From positions 1-21,724 of the IMG/VR virus record IMGVR_UViG_3300025759_000814: DNA of 21,724 nt; one strand, 5' to 3'. A program made the position numbers and the translations under genes. This stretch comes from a virus. Below the pieces are notes generated by a model. The model searched no databases, was not told the origin of the DNA, and was given only the letters and a program-made list of their open reading frames with translations. This document shows, piece by piece, positions 2,138 through 21,724 of the stretch. How positions within the stretch are numbered: the stretch's first letter is position 1; the number at the start of each line of letters is the position of its first letter.

Positions 2138-3226
2138 TTAGTCTCCTGAACAAGCTCCCAAGGAATATTTAGCCGCTGTAAGATCACCAAAGTCAATGGC
2201 GTTACCGGGAGTTTGGATGGTAATGTACTGAATAGTGTTAATGTCACTACCAGTAGTACCCCCAGCAAAAACTCCCCTTACCCCATTAGAAGTACCATCA
2301 GGCTGGTTTGTTTCACTAAGTAAATCTCCAAAGTCTGTAGCGTTACCTGTCGTATCTGTAGTAACATATTGTATAACATTAGTTCTAGCGGGGTTGCCGT
2401 CATAACCACCAGCAAAAACGCATCTTGTTAAATCTGAGCAAGCCCCCATACCGCTGACTGCTGCTAATAAGTCTCCGAAATCAGTGACATTACCAGTGGT
2501 TGCAATAGTGATGTATTCTATTACATTTAATCTGTTGGGGCTGGCGAAACCTCCAGCAAACAGCGCCCTTACACTACCACTAGCCGCTGCGGTAGTAGAC
2601 TTTGAGCTACTTAAATCACCAAAGTCTATGGCATTACCTGTGGTAGCTATGGTAATATAGTCTAGTACATTACCCGCGGGACTATAACTAGCAAAAACAC
2701 CTCTTTGAGCGTTACTTGCGCCCTTTGTTTGCCTTGCTACTGTTAAATCCCCAAAGTCTGTAGTATTTCCCGTGATGGCTATAGTAATGTATTCCATCAC
2801 ATTTGTTACATCGGAAAACTGTACAGTACCTCCTCCAAAAACACCCCTAACACTATTTGATACCGCACCTACACCAACTTTATTAGCGCTTAAATCACCA
2901 AAGTCCGTAGCATTTCCTGTATTGGCTATTGTAATGTACTCTATTACATTAAAAAAGCTACTTTGGCCCCCTGCAAAAACACCCCTTGATCCGTACCAGA
3001 CCGTTAAAGGTGCCACCGTTGTAGCAGTGTACCACTCTGAGTTAGTATATATCTTTAATACAGATTCACCTGTATCCCACCACAAAGCGCCCTCGTTAGG
3101 GTAACTTGGTGCAGTGGCAGAAGTTGTATATTCACGCTCAACAAAACCGTCTCCCACTTTTACGTTATATGGAAAATCTACGGGGGAACCATTATTTCCA
3201 AGAGAATTTACTTTTAAAGTGCTCAT
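2138..3226 (-). CDS. Six-repeat kelch-like beta-propeller appendage protein (paralogue 3)
   Basis: A 362-residue protein with an N-terminal tether domain and six repeats. Residues 1-90 hold MSTLKVNSLGNNGSPVDFPY and a YTTSATAPSYPNEGALWWDT segment shared with the two upstream paralogues. From about residue 85 the unit RGVFAGG[21 protein letters not shown] recurs six times, counted by the DFGDL motif, at roughly 45-50 residue spacing. Gly-Gly turns followed by a Tyr-Ile-Thr-Ile strand are typical of kelch/RCC1-type blades, so a six-bladed propeller is likely. Such proteins are common in marine phages and are presumed host-surface or glycan-binding appendages. Blade 3 is irregular (VFASYSP instead of VFAGG). 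The ATG at 3226 follows GGAGG. It is the third of three tandem paralogues. Confidence 0.85.
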   Translation of the reverse strand: MSTLKVNSLGNNGSPVDFPYNVKVGDGFVEREYTTSATAPSYPNEGALWWDTGESVLKIYTNSEWYTATTVAPLTVWYGSRGVFAGGQSSFFNVIEYITIANTGNATDFGDLSANKVGVGAVSNSVRGVFGGGTVQFSDVTNVMEYITIAITGNTTDFGDLTVARQTKGASNAQRGVFASYSPAGNVLDYITIATTGNAIDFGDLSSSKSTTAAASGSVRALFAGGFASPNRLNVIEYITIATTGNVTDFGDLLAAVSGMGACSDLTRCVFAGGYDGNPARTNVIQYVTTDTTGNATDFGDLLSETNQPDGTSNGVRGVFAGGTTGSDINTIQYITIQTPGNAIDFGDLTAAKYSLGACSGD

Positions 3227-3250
3227 TTTTAACCTCCAAACGCCGAACCG

Positions 3251-4378
3251 CTAACTGCTTTGTCCAGATGCCGCCCCGCTGGGTCTAGTTGTAAAGAGAA
3301 AATCGCCAAAATCAGCCGCGTTGCCAAGAGTGTCCATAGTAATATAATCCATAGTGTTAGTGTTTGAAAAATTAGACGAAGCACCAGCCACGAATACCGC
3401 TCTTGTCCCATTGCTTACCGCCGCAAAATTACTCCTAGCTAAAGTCAAATCACCAAAATCTGTAGCGTTGCCGGGAGTGTCTGTCGTCATATACTGTATC
3501 ACGTTTACTTTGCTACTTGATACTGTTCCTCCCCCAGCAACCGTTCTGGTTTTATTAGATGTAGCAGCAAGGTTAACAGTAGCAGACAGTAAATCGCCAA
3601 AGTCTGTAGCGTTACCTGTGGTCGCTATCGTAATGTAATCTATAGTGTTATATATAGTTACACCTTGATTGCCTGCCATAAACAAACCGTATGTGGTGCC
3701 CCCAGCGCCAGCTAGACTCCACCTACCAACTGTTAGATCGCCAAAGTCTATAGCGTTACCCGTTGTGTCTATCGTAATATAATCCATAACGGTGTCGTCT
3801 CCATCACCCGCACCGCCACCGAAAACACCTCTAACCGCGTTTGATGCTGCAGCCAAAAGACTTCTGTTTACTGTCAAATCACCAAAATCCGTGGTGTTAC
3901 CTTCATTGACAAAACCAAGGTATTGTATGTAGTTAGCGGGGTCTTGAGCGCCAGATGCCGCCCCCCCACCCCAAACGCCCCTACTACCGTTAGAAACCGC
4001 CGCAGTATAAGAAATCGACCCAGACACAATAGCTTGGCCCCCATACCCAGCAGCGTTGCTAAGTGTATCAAGATTACTTATTTTATAAATAAATTGGTTT
4101 TTACTATCAAACCCTAAAAAAACAGCTTTAGGGCCAAACCATGAAGGCGGCGGAGTCAAAGTGATTGTATACCAATCACCGTTAACATACTGTTTTGTGT
4201 TCGAGCCATTGTACCAAACCGCGCCGTTTGCAGGGGAAGAGGGTTCTGACGCCCCTGTGTAATATTCAGTCATCGTCACCAAACTGGTGATGTTTGTACC
4301 TTCTACTGACAAACCTTGACTAAAAGTTGGCGGTCCACCGGATATGTTTTCAATGTTCGTTGTGTTAAACTTACTCAT
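3251..4378 (-). CDS. Six-repeat kelch-like beta-propeller appendage protein (paralogue 2)
   Basis: A 375-residue paralogue of its two neighbours. The N-terminal part (1-100) carries MSKFNTTNIENISGGPPTFS and YTGASEPSSPANGAVWYNG, matching the same tether segment in the others, then PPPSWFGPKAVFLG as the entry to blade 1. Five clear blades end in TDFGDL or a variant ([24 protein letters not shown] twice, NAADFGDF). The first blade is degenerate: it has no DFGDL and reads KISNLDTLSNAAGYGGQAIV instead. It begins 3 bases after the stop of the upstream paralogue with a GGAG site inside that gene's end, so the pair is probably coupled. The role is presumed receptor or glycan recognition at the virion surface, from family context, not from any visible binding site. 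Confidence 0.85.
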   Translation of the reverse strand: MSKFNTTNIENISGGPPTFSQGLSVEGTNITSLVTMTEYYTGASEPSSPANGAVWYNGSNTKQYVNGDWYTITLTPPPSWFGPKAVFLGFDSKNQFIYKISNLDTLSNAAGYGGQAIVSGSISYTAAVSNGSRGVWGGGAASGAQDPANYIQYLGFVNEGNTTDFGDLTVNRSLLAAASNAVRGVFGGGAGDGDDTVMDYITIDTTGNAIDFGDLTVGRWSLAGAGGTTYGLFMAGNQGVTIYNTIDYITIATTGNATDFGDLLSATVNLAATSNKTRTVAGGGTVSSSKVNVIQYMTTDTPGNATDFGDLTLARSNFAAVSNGTRAVFVAGASSNFSNTNTMDYITMDTLGNAADFGDFLFTTRPSGAASGQSS

Positions 4379-4381
4379 GTG

Positions 4382-5509
4382 TCAGTCTCCAGATGCGCCG
4401 CCCATATAGTTCAACGGTTGGCCCGCGCTAAGATCTCCAAAATCAGATGCATTTCCCGGGGTTTGAATAGTAAAATAATCTATTGTAAGGGCCGTTGCGG
4501 CTTGAGAGCCGCCGCCAAGTATCCCTCTTGTTCCATTCGAGATTCCAGTCGCTTTGTCTCTTACTGCAGTAAGATCTCCAAAATCGGTAGCGTTCCCTGT
4601 AGTTTGTATTGTTACGTATTGAATTACGTTTTGTGCTGCTGAAGTAGTCCCTCCCGCAAAAACACCTCTCGTATCATCCGAACACGATCCCATATTTGCA
4701 GCAGCAGCAAGCAAATCTCCAAAATCAGTTGTGTTTCCTGTAGTTTGTATTGTTATGTATTGAATTGCGTTTTGTGATACACTTGAAGAATTTAAACCAC
4801 CCGCTATTAGTCCGCGAGTTTTGTCCGCGCACGCCGTAGTTTGGTTGCCCCCTGCAGTTGTAATGTCTAAGTCTCCAAAATCATTAGCGCTTCCAGTCGT
4901 TGCAATAAGAACGTAATCAATTACATTAGTCACAGAAAACTGAAAGCCCCCAGCAAACACCCCACGAAGGCCGTCTGAACAACTGCTAAGGTTATATCGA
5001 GAGAATGATAGGTTTCCGAAATTAGTCCCATTTCCAGACGTTGCGAAAGTAATGTAGTCAATGGCAAATGTTATAGAACTACCTCTCCCAGCACCGTAAA
5101 TGCCACGACTTCCGTTAGAACACCCTGCAAGCTCTTTTCTCGCACTTACCAGATTGCCAAAATCTGTAGCGTTTCCTGTCGTAGAAATAGTTACAGACTG
5201 TATGATGTTATAATAATTAGCTCCATCTACTGAACCACCACCCGCAAATACACCTGTATCGCCATAGTAAATAGGAGGTGGCGTTGAGTCTATCTCATAC
5301 CACCCATCATTGACATAATAGTAAATCTTCTCGTCACCAGTGTTCCACCAAACTGCACCGTTTGCAGGGTTATTAGGCTCGGTTGCGGAGGAAGTGTACT
5401 CCATTTGGTTTACAGAGGATAAAGCTGTACCACCTACAGTAATACCATCAGTAGCGTTTGGTGCGCCCGTACCCGCAACATCAGTAATTGTGTCTACTTT
5501 TAACGTCAT
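4382..5509 (-). CDS. Six-repeat kelch-like beta-propeller appendage protein (paralogue 1)
   Basis: A 375-residue protein starting at ATG 5509. That ATG shares four bases (ATGA) with the stop of the fibre gene and has GGTGG upstream; a longer TTG-initiated form at 5524 is less likely. The N-terminus [20 protein letters not shown] leads to [20 protein letters not shown] and a short [13 protein letters not shown] linker. Six blades follow, each ending in (D/N)FGDL or [52 protein letters not shown]. Unit spacing is 47-52 residues. Blades 4 and 5 are the most alike, suggesting recent blade duplication. It is the gene directly downstream of the main fibre and may attach to it (inference). Confidence 0.85.
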
Positions 5510-7242
5510 GTTACCACCGTCCAAGTTGAGCCAGAAGGCACTGTTACTGTTACACCACTGTCAATCGTAATCGGTCCCGCTGACATGGCATTTTTACCAG
5601 ACGTAATAGTGTAGTTCGCGGTTACATTAGTGTTGTTTTCATAGAACACACCGTCCGCCGCGCCGCCAGCAGCATCTGCCCACTCGCCAGCCGTTGCGCC
5701 AGCGTTTACTGTAAGTACCTGCCCAGCAGTTCCAAGAGACGAAGGGATGTTTGTAGCAATATCAACGCCGTCAACGGTGCCTGAGACAGTAATGTTGCCA
5801 GTTACATCTACACCCGTACTTTTCGTTGCAAGTTTTTCGCTTCCGTAATGGTATAGCTGAACTTCACCCGTGCTTCCATCCGCAACAAAATAATTTGCAG
5901 TGCCGCCGGAGCCATTATCACTTTGAATAAGAACATCTAAATCATTACCAAATTGCCTTATATAGAGATTACCCGTAGAAATATCTATAAAATTATTAGT
6001 TGAATGATATAGTGTAAAATCAGAAGATGAACCAAGTCTTATCTGTGCGTTATCTGGAAATTCTAAGGAATTATTAGAATAATCCCAAACAATGTCATAA
6101 ACACTGCCTGAAAAAGTTACATCACCCGTGAACGTACCACCTGACTTTGGCATAGCTGCATTAGCAGTAGTAGTTGTTGAAGTGAGAACTGCATCACGAG
6201 CGGCAATATCAACGCCATCTACAGTGCCAGAAACCGTTATGTTACCTGTAACTTGAACCCCTGTAGTGGTAGTAGCTAGTTTAAGACTACCATTAGTATA
6301 TAGTGAAACTCCGCCACTCTGAAAACCAACAATAGAATTTGTACCGCCCGAAGTTTTAAGTGTAAAACCACCTCCTGATATAATATTTAAATAAGCATTA
6401 CTTAAATTACTATCAATAACACTTTGAGTACCATCGTGATATATTTCTAAATCACCACCAGTGCCAAATACAGCTTTAGCATTATCTGCAAACTCTAACG
6501 CATTATCAGACTTATCCCATACGACATTGTAAGAGTCGCCCGTAAAGGTAACGTCACCCGTAAACGTACCACCAGCCAGTGGCATTAATGAAGACGTGTC
6601 TATCGTGCCGAAAGATAGAGTGCCAGAACCATTAGTCTGAAGTACCTGATCAGCAGTACCGTCTGAAGTTGGTAAGGTAAACGTATCTACAAAAGATTGG
6701 AGATTAGAGTCATAGGCAAGTACATCTGTGCCAATGGTTAAACCTAGTGAAGTACGCGCTGTAGCACCACTTTCTGTAACAAAGTTAGTGCCGTTTCCGA
6801 CAATAAAATTATTGTCTGTGGGAGTTAAACCTGCAATGTCCGCAAGCTGCGCATCATACGCTTGTACGTCCGAGCCAATAGCAACTCCAAGATTAGTTCG
6901 TGCAGTAGACGCATTATTTAAGTCTGATAGGTTGTTGGATGGCTGCATAATGTCAGCCGCAGCCGCTGTGATAAACACAGTAGCATCACCCGACAAGTTA
7001 ATAGCCGATCCGCCACTAGAACTTTCGCTAGGGGTACGAGATAGTGTCGTACCAGACGCGGTATACGTGCCTGTACCTATTTCCCAATTTGTACCATCTT
7101 CTATCGTGTAACGAACAGAATCACCGTCAGACACCCCAGCGGCAGCGAATGTTTGGTAGCCTGAAACGGCACTCCCTAGAGTTATTGTGCCTGTCCCGGG
7201 CGTAGAAGTTGAGACATAGGCTCTATTCTTTAAAACAGGCAT
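5506..7242 (-). CDS. Tail fibre protein, 578 aa
   Basis: The start [20 protein letters not shown] and the following [20 protein letters not shown] form the N-terminal domain (about 1-95) found on many marine phage fibres, presumably the part that attaches to the tail. Residues 100-215 hold two SDV(Q/L)AYD-type helical stalk segments ([20 protein letters not shown] and [20 protein letters not shown]). Two tandem modules follow at about 220-350 and 365-500, each opening [10 protein letters not shown] and closing [21 protein letters not shown]; they are an internal duplication. The C-terminus (about 530-578, [19 protein letters not shown] to SGSTWTVVT) is a beta-rich cap often seen on such fibres. 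No peptidase S74 chaperone domain is present. ATG at 7242 has an AGAGGT site. Host recognition is the inferred role. Confidence 0.88.
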
Positions 7243-12188: not shown

Positions 12189-12404
12189 TTATCCTGCAGA
12201 TACAGTCAAAACGCCTGAGTTACTCCAAAGCTGCCCTGCGACAGATGGATCAGCGGTTGGTAGGTCTGTAAAGATTACAACACTGTTTGTACCATCGTGA
12301 GAAATAGAAATATCTTCTGTCACAGTACCCGTATTTGCAGCTTTTGTGATTGCTTTAAAACCGTTTTCTGAACGGACTGCACCATTAAAGGTCGAATTAG
12401 CCAT
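12189..12404 (-). CDS. Small virion-type protein, 71 aa
   Basis: A 71-residue protein starting MANSTFNGAVRSENGFKAIT and ending SVAGQLWSNSGVLTVSAG. The opening MANSTFNGxVRSENGF is a recurring string in marine phage genomes next to capsid genes. The rest has DISISHDGTNSVVIFTDLPT, again beta-prone, and the final LWSNSGVLTVSAG is an end also seen on fibre-type proteins. ATG 12404 follows AGGAG. It is the first gene downstream of the terminator and candidate promoter, about 60 bases from the predicted transcript start. A capsid or neck decoration role is likely but unproven. Confidence 0.72.
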   Translation of the reverse strand: MANSTFNGAVRSENGFKAITKAANTGTVTEDISISHDGTNSVVIFTDLPTADPSVAGQLWSNSGVLTVSAG

Positions 12405-12429
12405 ATGAATCTCCTGTCTTGGCTAGTGT

Positions 12430-12448
12430 CAGCCACACCATGTGACTG
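12430..12448 (-). other. Leader RNA hairpin before the 71-aa gene
   Basis: In the minus-strand transcript, CAGTCACA and TGTGGCTG can pair as an 8-bp stem with one G-U pair and a 3-base loop. It lies about 25 bases before the start codon at 12404 and just after the candidate promoter, so it is a 5' leader stem. No T-run follows, so it is not a terminator. It may protect the transcript end or mark processing. Confidence 0.4.
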
Positions 12449-12462
12449 TCAGGGATTGCCTA

Positions 12463-18554: not shown

Positions 18555-20108
18555 TCAGTAGTAACCGCCTTTGCGTTGCCTAAAGTATCTAGGCTCATCC
18601 GGTTCATCTGTAGGCAACCGTATAAACCCGCCCTGTCTAAACCGCATGAGGGCCATCACTGTAGAGTCAACAAGGTCATCGTGGCTCATAAACGGAAACC
18701 CTGCTATCTCCTCAATAACCTCTTCAGCCCAACGCGTCTGTGGTACCCATACCATACCAGAGGCTATTATGTCAGCTACAGAATTAAGTCTAGCCATCTT
18801 ATCCCCTGATCCACGGTGCGGGGTGTACTCCTGTACGGGCAATCCTGTCCTGCGCATCTCCTGATACAGGGCTGCACCAGAACTCTTTTTCTCCACAATG
18901 AACGAATCTGGCTCCCAGTCCGCGTACTCCTGCATAGCCAGTGCTTTTAGCTCTGGAAACTCAAGTCTTTGCTTTATGCTATTCAGCAGAATTATGTGAT
19001 ATGCGTTTTCTTCTTCGTTTAAGAAGACGCCCCAAGTTGTAAGCGCGGTAAAGTCGGCTCTGTTGTGTTTTTCTGCCGCTGCGTCCAAAGACATAATGAT
19101 ATATTCGCAAACAGGTGGGTTTTCGCTTGTCCATTCCTGCCACCACTCCCTTTTTACTACAGCCGCTTCTTCTGCGGTAGGTTGCTGTTGATACTGAGCG
19201 TTCCACTGGAACACAGGCATCGACGCTTTTGTGCGTTCCAACGCCTTCATATCAAAAAATTCAGGCCAAAGCGGTTTATGTACTACTTTACCGCTCTTTT
19301 TGCTTTCAATTTCTAGTATAGCGGGAAATTCTACCACTTCATACTGGTCTGACAGATCATTATTGACCATATCACGTGTTACACGGCCCGTCAGGTCATC
19401 CATGTGCCATCGTGTCTGAATAATTGCGACCCGACCCCCCGGCATAAGGCGAGTACGAGCACCGAATGTGAACCACTCGTAGGCTTTTTCAAATACCTCA
19501 AAGTTTCCGTTGATAACGTCTTGTTCCGAGTGGGGATCATCCACTAGAAGGAGGTCAGCACCACGTCCAGCGAGCGCAGAACCAATACCACAGGCGTAAT
19601 ATTCACCCCCAGAGTTAGTATTCCACCGTCCAGCAGACTTACTGTCCTGCGCAAGACGCACCGTAGGGAATATAGCACGATATTCGTCCGACGATATGAG
19701 GTTTCTGACCTTCCTGCCGAAGTCTACCGCCAAATCTGTGGTGTGTGACACCATCATAACCTTCTTATCGGGGTTACGACCAAGAAACCAAGCAGGAAAA
19801 TAAATAGAAACAAGCTGAGATTTGCCATGACGGGGTGGTATGTTCACACAAATCCGGTCTTTGTCCCCTCTTTCGATACCCATGAGCATGGTTGCTAGGA
19901 TTTTATGGTGTTTACCTACCAAATAATCAGGCTGCATCCGCTTACAAAACTCTATCAAGTCCATATATGCGGCTTTGTTCGCCTTGCGGTTGTTTAGCTC
20001 GTCAACCATACGGTCGATTTCTAGGATCTCCTCCTCAGAAAAAGCGTCTAGGTTGTCAAGAAGGTGGTCAACATCCACATCGTCGAATGTGACGGCCTTA
20101 TTCATCAT
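18555..20108 (-). CDS. terL: Terminase large subunit (ATPase and nuclease)
   Basis: The DNA-packaging motor and cutter. Numbered from ATG 20108 (517 residues): Walker A PPRHGKS at 91-97, then the adenine-side ISSDEYRAIFPTVRLAQDSK, Walker B LLLVDDP at 186-192, coupling motif QTRWHMDD at about 231-238. The C-terminal RNase H-like nuclease has MSLDAAAE with D342, FIVEKKSSG with E406, and SHDDLVDSTV with D477/D478. All active-site residues are in place, so it should be functional. ATG 20108 and 20105 are the alternative starts; GTG at 20117 is possible. The start overlaps the small terminase gene, so the two are coupled. Residues about 15-30 are acidic and helical. Confidence 0.95.
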   Translation of the reverse strand: MMNKAVTFDDVDVDHLLDNLDAFSEEEILEIDRMVDELNNRKANKAAYMDLIEFCKRMQPDYLVGKHHKILATMLMGIERGDKDRICVNIPPRHGKSQLVSIYFPAWFLGRNPDKKVMMVSHTTDLAVDFGRKVRNLISSDEYRAIFPTVRLAQDSKSAGRWNTNSGGEYYACGIGSALAGRGADLLLVDDPHSEQDVINGNFEVFEKAYEWFTFGARTRLMPGGRVAIIQTRWHMDDLTGRVTRDMVNNDLSDQYEVVEFPAILEIESKKSGKVVHKPLWPEFFDMKALERTKASMPVFQWNAQYQQQPTAEEAAVVKREWWQEWTSENPPVCEYIIMSLDAAAEKHNRADFTALTTWGVFLNEEENAYHIILLNSIKQRLEFPELKALAMQEYADWEPDSFIVEKKSSGAALYQEMRRTGLPVQEYTPHRGSGDKMARLNSVADIIASGMVWVPQTRWAEEVIEEIAGFPFMSHDDLVDSTVMALMRFRQGGFIRLPTDEPDEPRYFRQRKGGYY

Positions 20109-20694
20109 CAAATTCACTCATAATCGCATCAACATCTAGTGGACTATCGTCTAAAACGACTGCATCCTCTATATCTAGTGTTGGATTTGTCAATTTTGTC
20201 AGTTTCGCACGCAGCTTTTCCTTAATATCGTCGGTGGTCTGGTGCGTAATGGTCACTTCAGACTTCTCAGTAAACAAACCTACGTCTGATATTTTACCTA
20301 GAAGCTCCAACGCACGCATTCTGGTACGCGGGTCAGGGCTATCAGACTCAATAATCAGCTTGTTCGTGACTAAATGCCGAAGCTGCATAGAAGATTCTAC
20401 AACAGAGTGATTAAATTCTTTGATTATGGAGTTAGCTAACTTGATGGACGCAGGAGTAAGCGTAGCAGCACGTTTGTGTGTAACCTGTTTGGAGGTTCCG
20501 TCAGGGTCTTGCGCATAAGATGTTAGGAGCGTAGCGGCTACTTCTTCGTCTAACGCATCAGGTGTAGTGTCTACGCCGTGCTTCTCTAATTTGTTAACTG
20601 TATTGTCCAACGCCTCGACGCGTTCAGGAAGATCGACGCTTGTTATGCTGTCGTCCAAAGGTATGCCAAGCTCTGGTTCTAAATTCATCGCCAT
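20098..20694 (-). CDS. terS: Probable terminase small subunit
   Basis: 198 residues from ATG 20694 (ATG 20688 and 20727 are alternatives; none has a good ribosome binding site, and a TTG at 20739 is weaker). The product has a low-complexity acidic N-terminal part, then helices HKRAATLTPASIKLANSIIK and FNHSVVESSMQLRHLVTNKL, then SPDPRTRMRALELLGKISDV with GLFTEKSEVTITHQ. ALxLLGKxxDVGLFTEKxEVT is a motif I recall from terminase small subunit-like proteins. The gene directly precedes the large subunit, as expected. Small terminases bind the packaging site and feed DNA to the motor. The C-terminus is acidic (DAVVLDDSPLDVDAIMSEFD). Not proven, since these proteins diverge. Confidence 0.72.
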   Translation of the reverse strand: MAMNLEPELGIPLDDSITSVDLPERVEALDNTVNKLEKHGVDTTPDALDEEVAATLLTSYAQDPDGTSKQVTHKRAATLTPASIKLANSIIKEFNHSVVESSMQLRHLVTNKLIIESDSPDPRTRMRALELLGKISDVGLFTEKSEVTITHQTTDDIKEKLRAKLTKLTNPTLDIEDAVVLDDSPLDVDAIMSEFDDE

Positions 20695-20728
20695 AGTGTG
20701 TTCGCAGGTGTTACCCGTATAACGCATT

Positions 20729-20756
20729 AGGATACACAATAAAAAATTTTTTACAA
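20729..20756 (-). promoter_or_regulatory. Candidate promoter before terminase
   Basis: On the minus strand, TTGTAA (20756-20751, four of six to the -35 consensus) and TATCCT (20734-20729, four of six to the -10) are 16 bases apart in a T-rich stretch. A start near 20721 would place the terminase ATG at 20694 about 27 bases inside the transcript and excludes the 20727 and 20739 start codons. Weak pattern match. Confidence 0.3.
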
Positions 20757-20900: not shown

Positions 20901-20918
20901 TTCGGGCATGTGCCCGAA
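20901..20918 (+). repeat. Inverted repeat TTCGGGCA-TG-TGCCCGAA, copy 1
   Basis: Perfect 8-bp arms around two bases, followed by TGA. It lies about 108 bases before the plus-strand ATG. The same arms recur at 21693-21710. It may be a protein-binding operator or a small stem-loop; no T-run follows, so it is not a terminator. Confidence 0.85.
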
Positions 20919-21014
20919 TGACATATCATGGTTATCCCTTGTATAACGTGTCAGTACATGTCATAGCTTGGTTATCGGGACAAGCGAGCCGCTATGGTTT
21001 CCGCCGATTAACTG

Positions 21015-21020
21015 AAAGGA
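21015..21020 (+). promoter_or_regulatory. Ribosome binding site AAAGGA of the plus-strand gene
   Basis: AAAGGA ends six bases before ATG 21027. It fixes this ATG as the start and supports the plus-strand gene as real. Confidence 0.75.
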
Positions 21021-21026
21021 CATAAC

Positions 21027-21623
21027 ATGTCTACAAACTTCGATATTAAAGCTATCCGTAAAATTGGTGCTGACCTGATCAAAGTACACGGTCTAGGCGG
21101 TGAATTTAAATCCGACGATCTTGGAACGCTGGCAAGCGCACACTCCGGTGAAATGACATCTAGTCAGGCCTACGAATACCGCATTGCGGAATTGAGCGAT
21201 AAGCCAGAGAATTGGTTTACGCCTAGTCAGGAAGGCAGCACCAATGACAAAACGTCATGGGAAACCAAACGCAAGATGGCAATGGTAATATGCCTGACAC
21301 CTCACGAGGTGCATCGCATGGCAGAGACAAAAGGCACGACCGACGACGCGGAAAAACTGTTCCGCAAACAAATATCTGATAAGATCAGCGACAAGCTAAA
21401 GAATATCAGACGCGGTATGATTAACGCGGATCGCCGCCTTAATCCTGAGAAATACCAGCGGACTGTGACCAAACGTGACGCACAGGATCGCATCATGGAA
21501 CACGTCACAGCTATCGCCAAAATACTATCTGAGATTGGCGAAGACGATAACAGCATCTGGGATATACCAGAGACTAACATCGCGCTGAAAACACTTGAGA
21601 AACAAGTGAAACGCAAATCATAA
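21027..21623 (+). CDS. Plus-strand protein of unknown function, 198 aa
   Basis: The only gene facing right. It has its own AAAGGA site and an intrinsic terminator 16 bases after the stop, so it is an independent single-gene unit. The 198 residues are mostly helical, rich in Lys, Asp, Glu: MSTNFDIKAIRKIGADLIKV, then LGTLASAHSGEMTSSQAYEY, SWETKRKMAMVICLTPHEVH and, after KLFRKQISDKISDKLKNIRR, GMINADRRLNPEKY and RDAQDRIMEHVTAIAKILSE. I recognise no domain. There is no signal peptide, membrane segment or catalytic motif. The two amphipathic helical stretches at about 110-140 and 150-180 could dimerise. Position next to a divergent control region and between identical inverted repeats fits a small regulator or early protein, which is inference. 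Confidence 0.75.
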   Translation: MSTNFDIKAIRKIGADLIKVHGLGGEFKSDDLGTLASAHSGEMTSSQAYEYRIAELSDKPENWFTPSQEGSTNDKTSWETKRKMAMVICLTPHEVHRMAETKGTTDDAEKLFRKQISDKISDKLKNIRRGMINADRRLNPEKYQRTVTKRDAQDRIMEHVTAIAKILSEIGEDDNSIWDIPETNIALKTLEKQVKRKS

Positions 21624-21639
21624 CACACTACACCACACT

Positions 21640-21667
21640 GGGTCGCCTTTTGGCGGCCCATTTTTTT
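21640..21667 (+). terminator. Intrinsic terminator of the plus-strand gene
   Basis: GGGTCGCC (21640-21647) pairs with GGCGGCCC (21652-21659) with one G-U pair, loop TTTT, followed by A and seven T (21661-21667). This is a textbook Rho-independent terminator, 17 bases after the stop codon of the plus-strand gene. In the other direction there is no T-run, so it works one way. Confidence 0.92.
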
Positions 21668-21692
21668 ATGTCTAATGAAATGATAGTTTAGC

Positions 21693-21710
21693 TTCGGGCA
21701 GATGCCCGAA
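21693..21710 (+). repeat. Inverted repeat TTCGGGCA-GA-TGCCCGAA, copy 2
   Basis: The arms are identical to copy 1 at 20901-20918 and the 3' flank is again TGA; only the two central bases differ (GA, not TG). It lies beyond the terminator, so it probably belongs to the upstream region of the next plus-strand gene, outside the window. Confidence 0.85.
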
Positions 21711-21724
21711 TGAAATTTGATACC

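Follow-up and report, generated by a model that had tools for sequence, protein, structure and literature searches.

Near-invariant palindromes ahead of early genes in uncultured marine phages, and other palindromes in the same places in related lineages

The window analyzed here is the whole of IMG/VR record IMGVR_UViG_3300025759_000814, a linear sequence of 21,724 bp that is probably a fragment of a phage genome. Its minus-strand genes include those for the terminase large subunit, portal, capsid, and tail, and only its last ~1 kb reaches into a plus-strand early block. Megablast of the window against named phages gave no match. Just 3′ of the major capsid gene, positions 12402-12454 (minus strand) match the Rfam Mu-gpT-DE RNA (RF03012, 74 bits), as does a part of contig L125, and the minus-strand region 2138-5524 holds three tandem, apparently paralogous genes of 362-380 amino acids with internal repeats (VFAGG...), whose products are probably tail fibre or adhesin variants. 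The features at the right-hand end of the window are as follows.

20098..20739, minus strand: probable terminase small subunit gene (weak phrog_51 match), divergent, on the other side of palindrome copy 1
20901..20918: palindrome copy 1, TTCGGGCATGTGCCCGAA, with the family core TCGGGCANNTGCCCGA at 20902-20917; the start codon of the 198-aa gene lies 108 nt downstream
21027..21623, plus strand: gene for a 198-aa all-helical early protein, the first gene of the plus-strand early block of relatives
21640..21667, plus strand: intrinsic terminator of the 198-aa gene, GGTCGCC-tttt-GGCGGCC and a T-run, before copy 2 (direct reading)
21693..21710: palindrome copy 2, TTCGGGCAGATGCCCGAA, the opening unit of a non-coding tandem array that extends beyond the window
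21718..21724, plus strand: truncated start of a second repeated motif, TGATACCAGT, which follows the array palindromes in relatives

The two palindromes, TTCGGGCATGTGCCCGAATGA at 20901-20921 and TTCGGGCAGATGCCCGAATGA at 21693-21713, have perfect 8-base arms around a 2-base centre, and the window contains no further match to either at up to three mismatches (mean in dinucleotide shuffles, 0.05). The inverted repeats that a first-pass annotation had reported from this sequence are thus real and exact. That annotation placed them on either side of the plus-strand gene, which holds for copy 1, with the divergent small-terminase gene on one side and the 198-aa gene on the other, and for the position of copy 2, which starts 25 bases beyond the T-run of the terminator. 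Its suggestion that copy 2 leads into the next plus-strand gene does not hold, since this copy opens the non-coding array and the next gene has a copy of its own. The spacing between the two copies is 792 bp in the window and in three near relatives and 793 bp in a fourth, and in the relative L003 the following copy lies 127 bp further on. The array itself (L003 2503-2980, L010 5090-5700) consists of units of ~110-145 bp, each with the palindrome, TGATACCAGT, and a short GAGTAGC-type hairpin, and then runs into a repeat-rich, AT-rich tract; it is possibly a replication origin or a source of small RNAs.

A search of viral contigs with the 21-base pattern returned four contigs that are 88-99% identical to the end of the window. 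Two of these, L003 and L002, extend ~3 kb past that end, where plus-strand genes are preceded by four more copies. One lies in a non-coding stretch of ~700 bp, and the others stand before a zinc-ribbon gene, before a 292-aa gene (the ~300-aa gene of this family), and before an AAA+ ATPase gene, where the core is only 2 bases from GGAG (e.g., L003 4210). The plus-strand regulon that had been predicted to lie outside the window is therefore present in these relatives. The core common to the relatives is TCGGGCANNTGCCCGA (type 1 below), and scanning for it showed two to ten copies in each of more than 40 contigs, while many single-copy matches look like background. Each of six long records has 9-11 copies, confined to the early block. 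In G001 (67.5 kb), all ten copies fall between 18.1 and 26.8 kb, where the plus-strand early block starts, and the minus-strand structural genes contain none.

Within the early block the copies are concentrated just before start codons rather than scattered. Of the 60 copies in the six records, 33 precede a Shine-Dalgarno (SD) sequence and start codon by 10-25 nt, where 3.2 would be expected if copies were spread uniformly over the non-coding DNA of the same region, an enrichment of about ten-fold even against non-coding DNA. The distance from copy to start is mostly 16-22 nt and peaks at 18-20 nt; a second group stands at 12 nt. Placement is orthologous across clades, and a few copies lie inside genes. 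Strong TTGACA-N17-TATAAT-like (sigma-70-type) promoters precede the copies at two early genes, namely the first small gene past the non-coding stretch and the ~300-aa gene, with the −10 box ending 38-81 nt upstream of the copy; therefore, the palindrome lies in a transcribed leader. Such promoters stand upstream of only ~25 of 155 copies, and most copies ahead of later operon genes lack one.

The arms are nearly invariant, as no site with one or two arm mismatches was found in G001, G002, G004, or G009; one type-1 subclade (L012, L128-L130, L088, L101) has TCGGGYA half-sites. Ahead of the helicase gene there are precise empty sites, where some phages read ...AAAAAAT-AGGAGAAC and others ...AAAAAATAATTCGGGCAGGTGCCCGAAAGGAGAAC, and the 20-nt unit is therefore present or absent as a block.

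Repeats of other kinds were seen alongside these. GTAGGGG-NNN-CCCCTAC repeats occur in L193, L200, L211, L220, L240, and L252, apparently unrelated viral contigs in which several of them sit inside longer G-rich hairpins; given these other contexts, they were not counted. Rhizobium phage RHph_TM3_14A (L286, MN988472) carries more than 20 copies of TTACCTNNNNAGGTAA-like palindromes, and in some of them (e.g., 9438, 13198, 22742) the right arm is itself an SD-like sequence right before ATG, so the hairpin would hide the ribosome site. The records OL906435, OQ594354, and PP438419, for phages reported from Planktothrix, Synechococcus, and Planktothricoides, are all 65,014 bp long and give the same match; OL906435 has a G+C content of 68.5%, so the cyanobacterial host assignment looks doubtful.

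More distant relatives, with AAA+ proteins 46-52% identical, lack type-1 copies, and in them a different repeated palindrome precedes the same kinds of genes. Type 2, GTAGGGGTNACCCCTAC, is present in 10-12 copies and type 3, GCGTGGYTANNARCCACGC, in six or more. Type 4, GGTTCAGNCTGAACC, belongs to the named phage Pag-Yong1 of the same terminase group (42% identity), in which many copies separate a stop codon from the SD of the early gene that follows. The AAA+, vWA, and ~300-aa genes are common to all four types, and an intragenic copy in the vWA-type gene appears at the corresponding place in types 1 and 2. HTVC023P, HTVC027P, 023Pt_psg01, DSL-LC04, and CRP-901 showed no such repeat in the stretches searched, and these phages also lack the AAA+, vWA, and ~300-aa genes. 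The occurrence of different palindromes in the same places in related phages points to an undescribed gene-control system. We put at about even odds that this is a family-wide system of early-gene control in tailed phages, in which a near-invariant palindrome would mark every major early cistron between the previous stop codon or promoter and the SD, the whole set would be swapped by lineage (at least four types), the centre would be strand-symmetric in its rule and symmetry-breaking in its sequence, and an undescribed trans-acting factor would co-evolve with the sites.

As for what such palindromes do, the reading we prefer, to which we assign a probability of roughly 45%, is that they are duplex-DNA sites for a phage-specific dimeric regulator downstream of promoters, acting as a stoperator-like roadblock. 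The putative dimeric DNA-binding protein would probably be phage-encoded and would recognize dyad-symmetric sites, about ten of them spread over the early plus-strand block and mostly set in the short gap from the previous stop codon, or a host-type promoter, to the SD. Because the sites lie downstream of promoters and within operons, the target of the bound protein would be RNA polymerase that is already transcribing. By analogy with mycobacteriophage stoperators, the protein may act as a roadblock or pausing switch and so lower early transcription in the course of infection. The sites and where they stand, their occurrence in leaders that are transcribed, the symmetry of the centre rule, and the replacement of the set across lineages are all read in the sequences; a dimeric binding protein and its roadblock effect are what we infer. 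Against a roadblock, the distance to the start codon (mostly 16-22 nt) is tighter than that to the promoter (38-81 nt), as in leader RNA elements. Against an operator, some copies are intragenic, and the helix-turn-helix (HTH) proteins of these phages (an 83-aa protein and an HTH-DUF6378 protein) are candidates only.

The main rival, which we consider rather unlikely, is an RNA hairpin, UCGGGC-ANNU-GCCCGA, lying 5′ of the SD of each early cistron at which an RNA-binding protein or nuclease would bind or cut and thereby control the translation of early mRNAs, their processing, or their stability. The element is indeed transcribed, keeps a short, constant spacing to the start codon, and folds stably (−11 to −16 kcal/mol, with shuffle z scores mostly −2.6 to −4.2); an Rfam search matched no known RNA family at the palindromes. 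The centre, however, obeys a rule that is the same on both strands. When the centre dinucleotides of SD-proximal copies are oriented by the mRNA, 31 have G first and 34 have C last (p=0.80), GC is avoided (5 seen against 35 expected), and AA, AG, AT, CG, CT, and TT do not occur at all, though these contexts are related by descent and the counts are not independent trials. In most copies G, or T in the G001 clade, is present in one half-site and absent from the other. This constraint favours duplex DNA, since an RNA loop would distinguish the strands. Likewise, in types 1, 2, and 4 the two halves stay complementary right up to the dyad, at positions that could not pair in the loop of an RNA hairpin, and half-site letters vary independently, giving TCGGGYA in one type-1 subclade and CGTGGY in type 3. 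Taken from sequence comparison, these three observations favour the duplex-DNA reading.

Changes within the stem are divided. In the type-1 subclade one-sided changes are mostly U-G wobbles (11 contexts against 2 for C-A), as a hairpin would predict, while among all type-3-pattern matches C-A exceeds T-G by 18 to 11, the opposite of a wobble preference; these contexts, too, are related by descent rather than independent trials. Compensatory stem changes are nearly absent within type 1, and the copies that lie inside genes or in non-coding arrays also speak against a leader hairpin. The dyad-symmetric operator envisaged by the first-pass annotation is hence favoured by the strand-symmetric centre, although the regulator that it proposed, the 198-residue protein, is unsupported.

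Centres were also compared between near-identical contigs, defined as those whose 80 flanking bases average at least 90% identity. A reverse-complement flip separates 12 pairs, a single base 15, and another double change 6. Replacement of the centre by its own reverse complement, seen in L018/L047, L003/L004, L128/L129, and L012/L129, is about as frequent as single substitution. In the zinc-ribbon leader of L129 and L012, the two differing bases are those expected from inversion of the whole palindrome, and hairpin- or cruciform-mediated inversion is a likely mutational route behind the flips.

Two further explanations appear improbable, to a similar degree. In one, a phage-specific RNA polymerase or activator would use the palindrome as a promoter element, as with the early hairpin promoters of N4, and short-leader transcripts would result; strong conservation, replacement of the set between lineages, tight spacing to the SD and start, and the early location would all suit it. 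No RNA polymerase domain was found in the Pfam scan of selected large proteins, however, strong host-type promoters already stand ahead of some copies, and the 2-base gap between core and GGAG noted above is too small for an N4-like start. A search for the T7-type polymerase family PF00940 gave no match either, but its positive control was silent as well, so this result is not decisive. In the other, the palindromes are sites for replication, partition, packaging, or condensation that are intergenic merely because non-coding DNA is found there. The several copies in an origin-like setting (tandem array, ~700-bp non-coding stretch, AT-rich tract) and the resemblance of centromere sites to long near-invariant palindromes fit this proposal, yet it does not account for the ten-fold enrichment before SD and start even relative to non-coding DNA, or for genes with long leaders whose copies keep the spacing of 16-22 nt to the start codon. 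It is highly improbable that the palindrome is a chance repeat or a neutral or selfish mobile unit. The clean presence or absence of the 20-nt unit before the helicase gene and the centre flips between near-identical relatives would fit such a view, but the near-invariant arms, the orthologous placement across clades, and the exchange for different palindromes at the same genes imply selection for function.

Several proteins were considered as the regulator in the duplex-DNA reading. The predicted model of the 198-aa protein is all-helical (pLDDT 85), as the first-pass annotation had it, but the protein has no PDB or BFVD fold match below E 0.39 and no Pfam family, and it is only 19-26% identical between type-1 clades that share identical motif arms, which argues against it. 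The HTH-DUF6378 protein was set aside, as its recognition helix differs between G005 and G004 despite the same arms, and the AF2 model of the shared ~300-aa protein was too poor for use. The best lead, on sequence grounds, is a candidate AlpA/MerR-like HTH protein of 83 aa at the end of the early operon, present in types 1-3 and not found in Pag-Yong1. Among type-1 phages its helix is well conserved; types 2 and 3 have a different helix, which also varies among type-2 phages. The asymmetric 2-bp core had raised the idea of serine or tyrosine recombinase sites, which was dropped when no integrase or resolvase (PF00589 or PF00239) was matched in the searched records, which may be incomplete. No HTH_3 repressor scored above the cut-off in six records, so that, with no recombinase, a lysogeny repressor is unlikely. 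A host regulon was rejected as well: among the matches listed when bacterial and archaeal genomes were scanned for the 18-mer (80 contigs), there was one copy each in unrelated taxa, which is background only, with no repeated copies upstream of genes.

Three known phage systems resemble these repeats in part. The start-associated sequence (SAS) of cluster K mycobacteriophages spans 13 bp, is asymmetric, includes the SD, and has no established function, and the extended SAS (ESAS) is a pair of imperfect 17-bp repeats separated by a 4-13 bp spacer (PMC3203893; PMC12699233). As here, these elements occur in many copies at non-structural genes only, adjoin translation starts, often touch the previous stop codon, and have an inverted-repeat part that varies by subcluster, as palindrome type does by lineage. 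The present phages, in contrast, are unrelated marine phages with a single near-perfect palindrome of 16-18 bp; it lies 5′ of the SD and differs in sequence from the 13-bp GGGATAGGAGCCC found at the ribosome-binding site in cluster K. It shares with the ESAS an inverted repeat by non-structural start codons and a group-specific consensus, but differs in arm length and spacing. The stoperators of cluster A (L5, Bxb1) are asymmetric 13-bp sites that follow the direction of transcription, and the lysogeny repressor that binds them is known (PMC6550527). Both sets are dispersed (9-11 copies per relative here, with promoters at ~25 of 155), mostly away from promoters, and lineage-specific in consensus, and an elongation roadblock has been proposed for the stoperators. 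Here, however, the arms are palindromic (7-8 bp), the asymmetric centre occurs equally in both orientations, the binding protein is only putative, and no integrase was found in the records searched. N4 has three early promoters with a 3-base loop, used by its virion RNA polymerase (PMC4496689). Inverted repeats are likewise repeated in the early region here, and the AAA+ gene has N4-like relatives, but no such polymerase was seen (with the PF00940 control silent) and host-type promoters are present. As placement or dispersal is shared while the defining sequence features are not, the palindromes are not counted as members of these systems, and no description of them was found in the open-licence papers searched.

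Ultimately, the observation made at the edge of this fragment is confirmed and the idea of a regulon is right, while the proposed 198-residue regulator is not supported. The two repeats belong to what appears to be a control system, shared by many marine phages that are uncultured and, among named relatives, by Pag-Yong1 at least. Having a named relative makes the question approachable at the bench. The palindromes may serve as a marker for early-region boundaries in viral metagenomes, and the at least four natural specificities offer a co-variation route to the regulator. They also provide a testable parallel to the unexplained SAS and ESAS of the cluster K mycobacteriophages.
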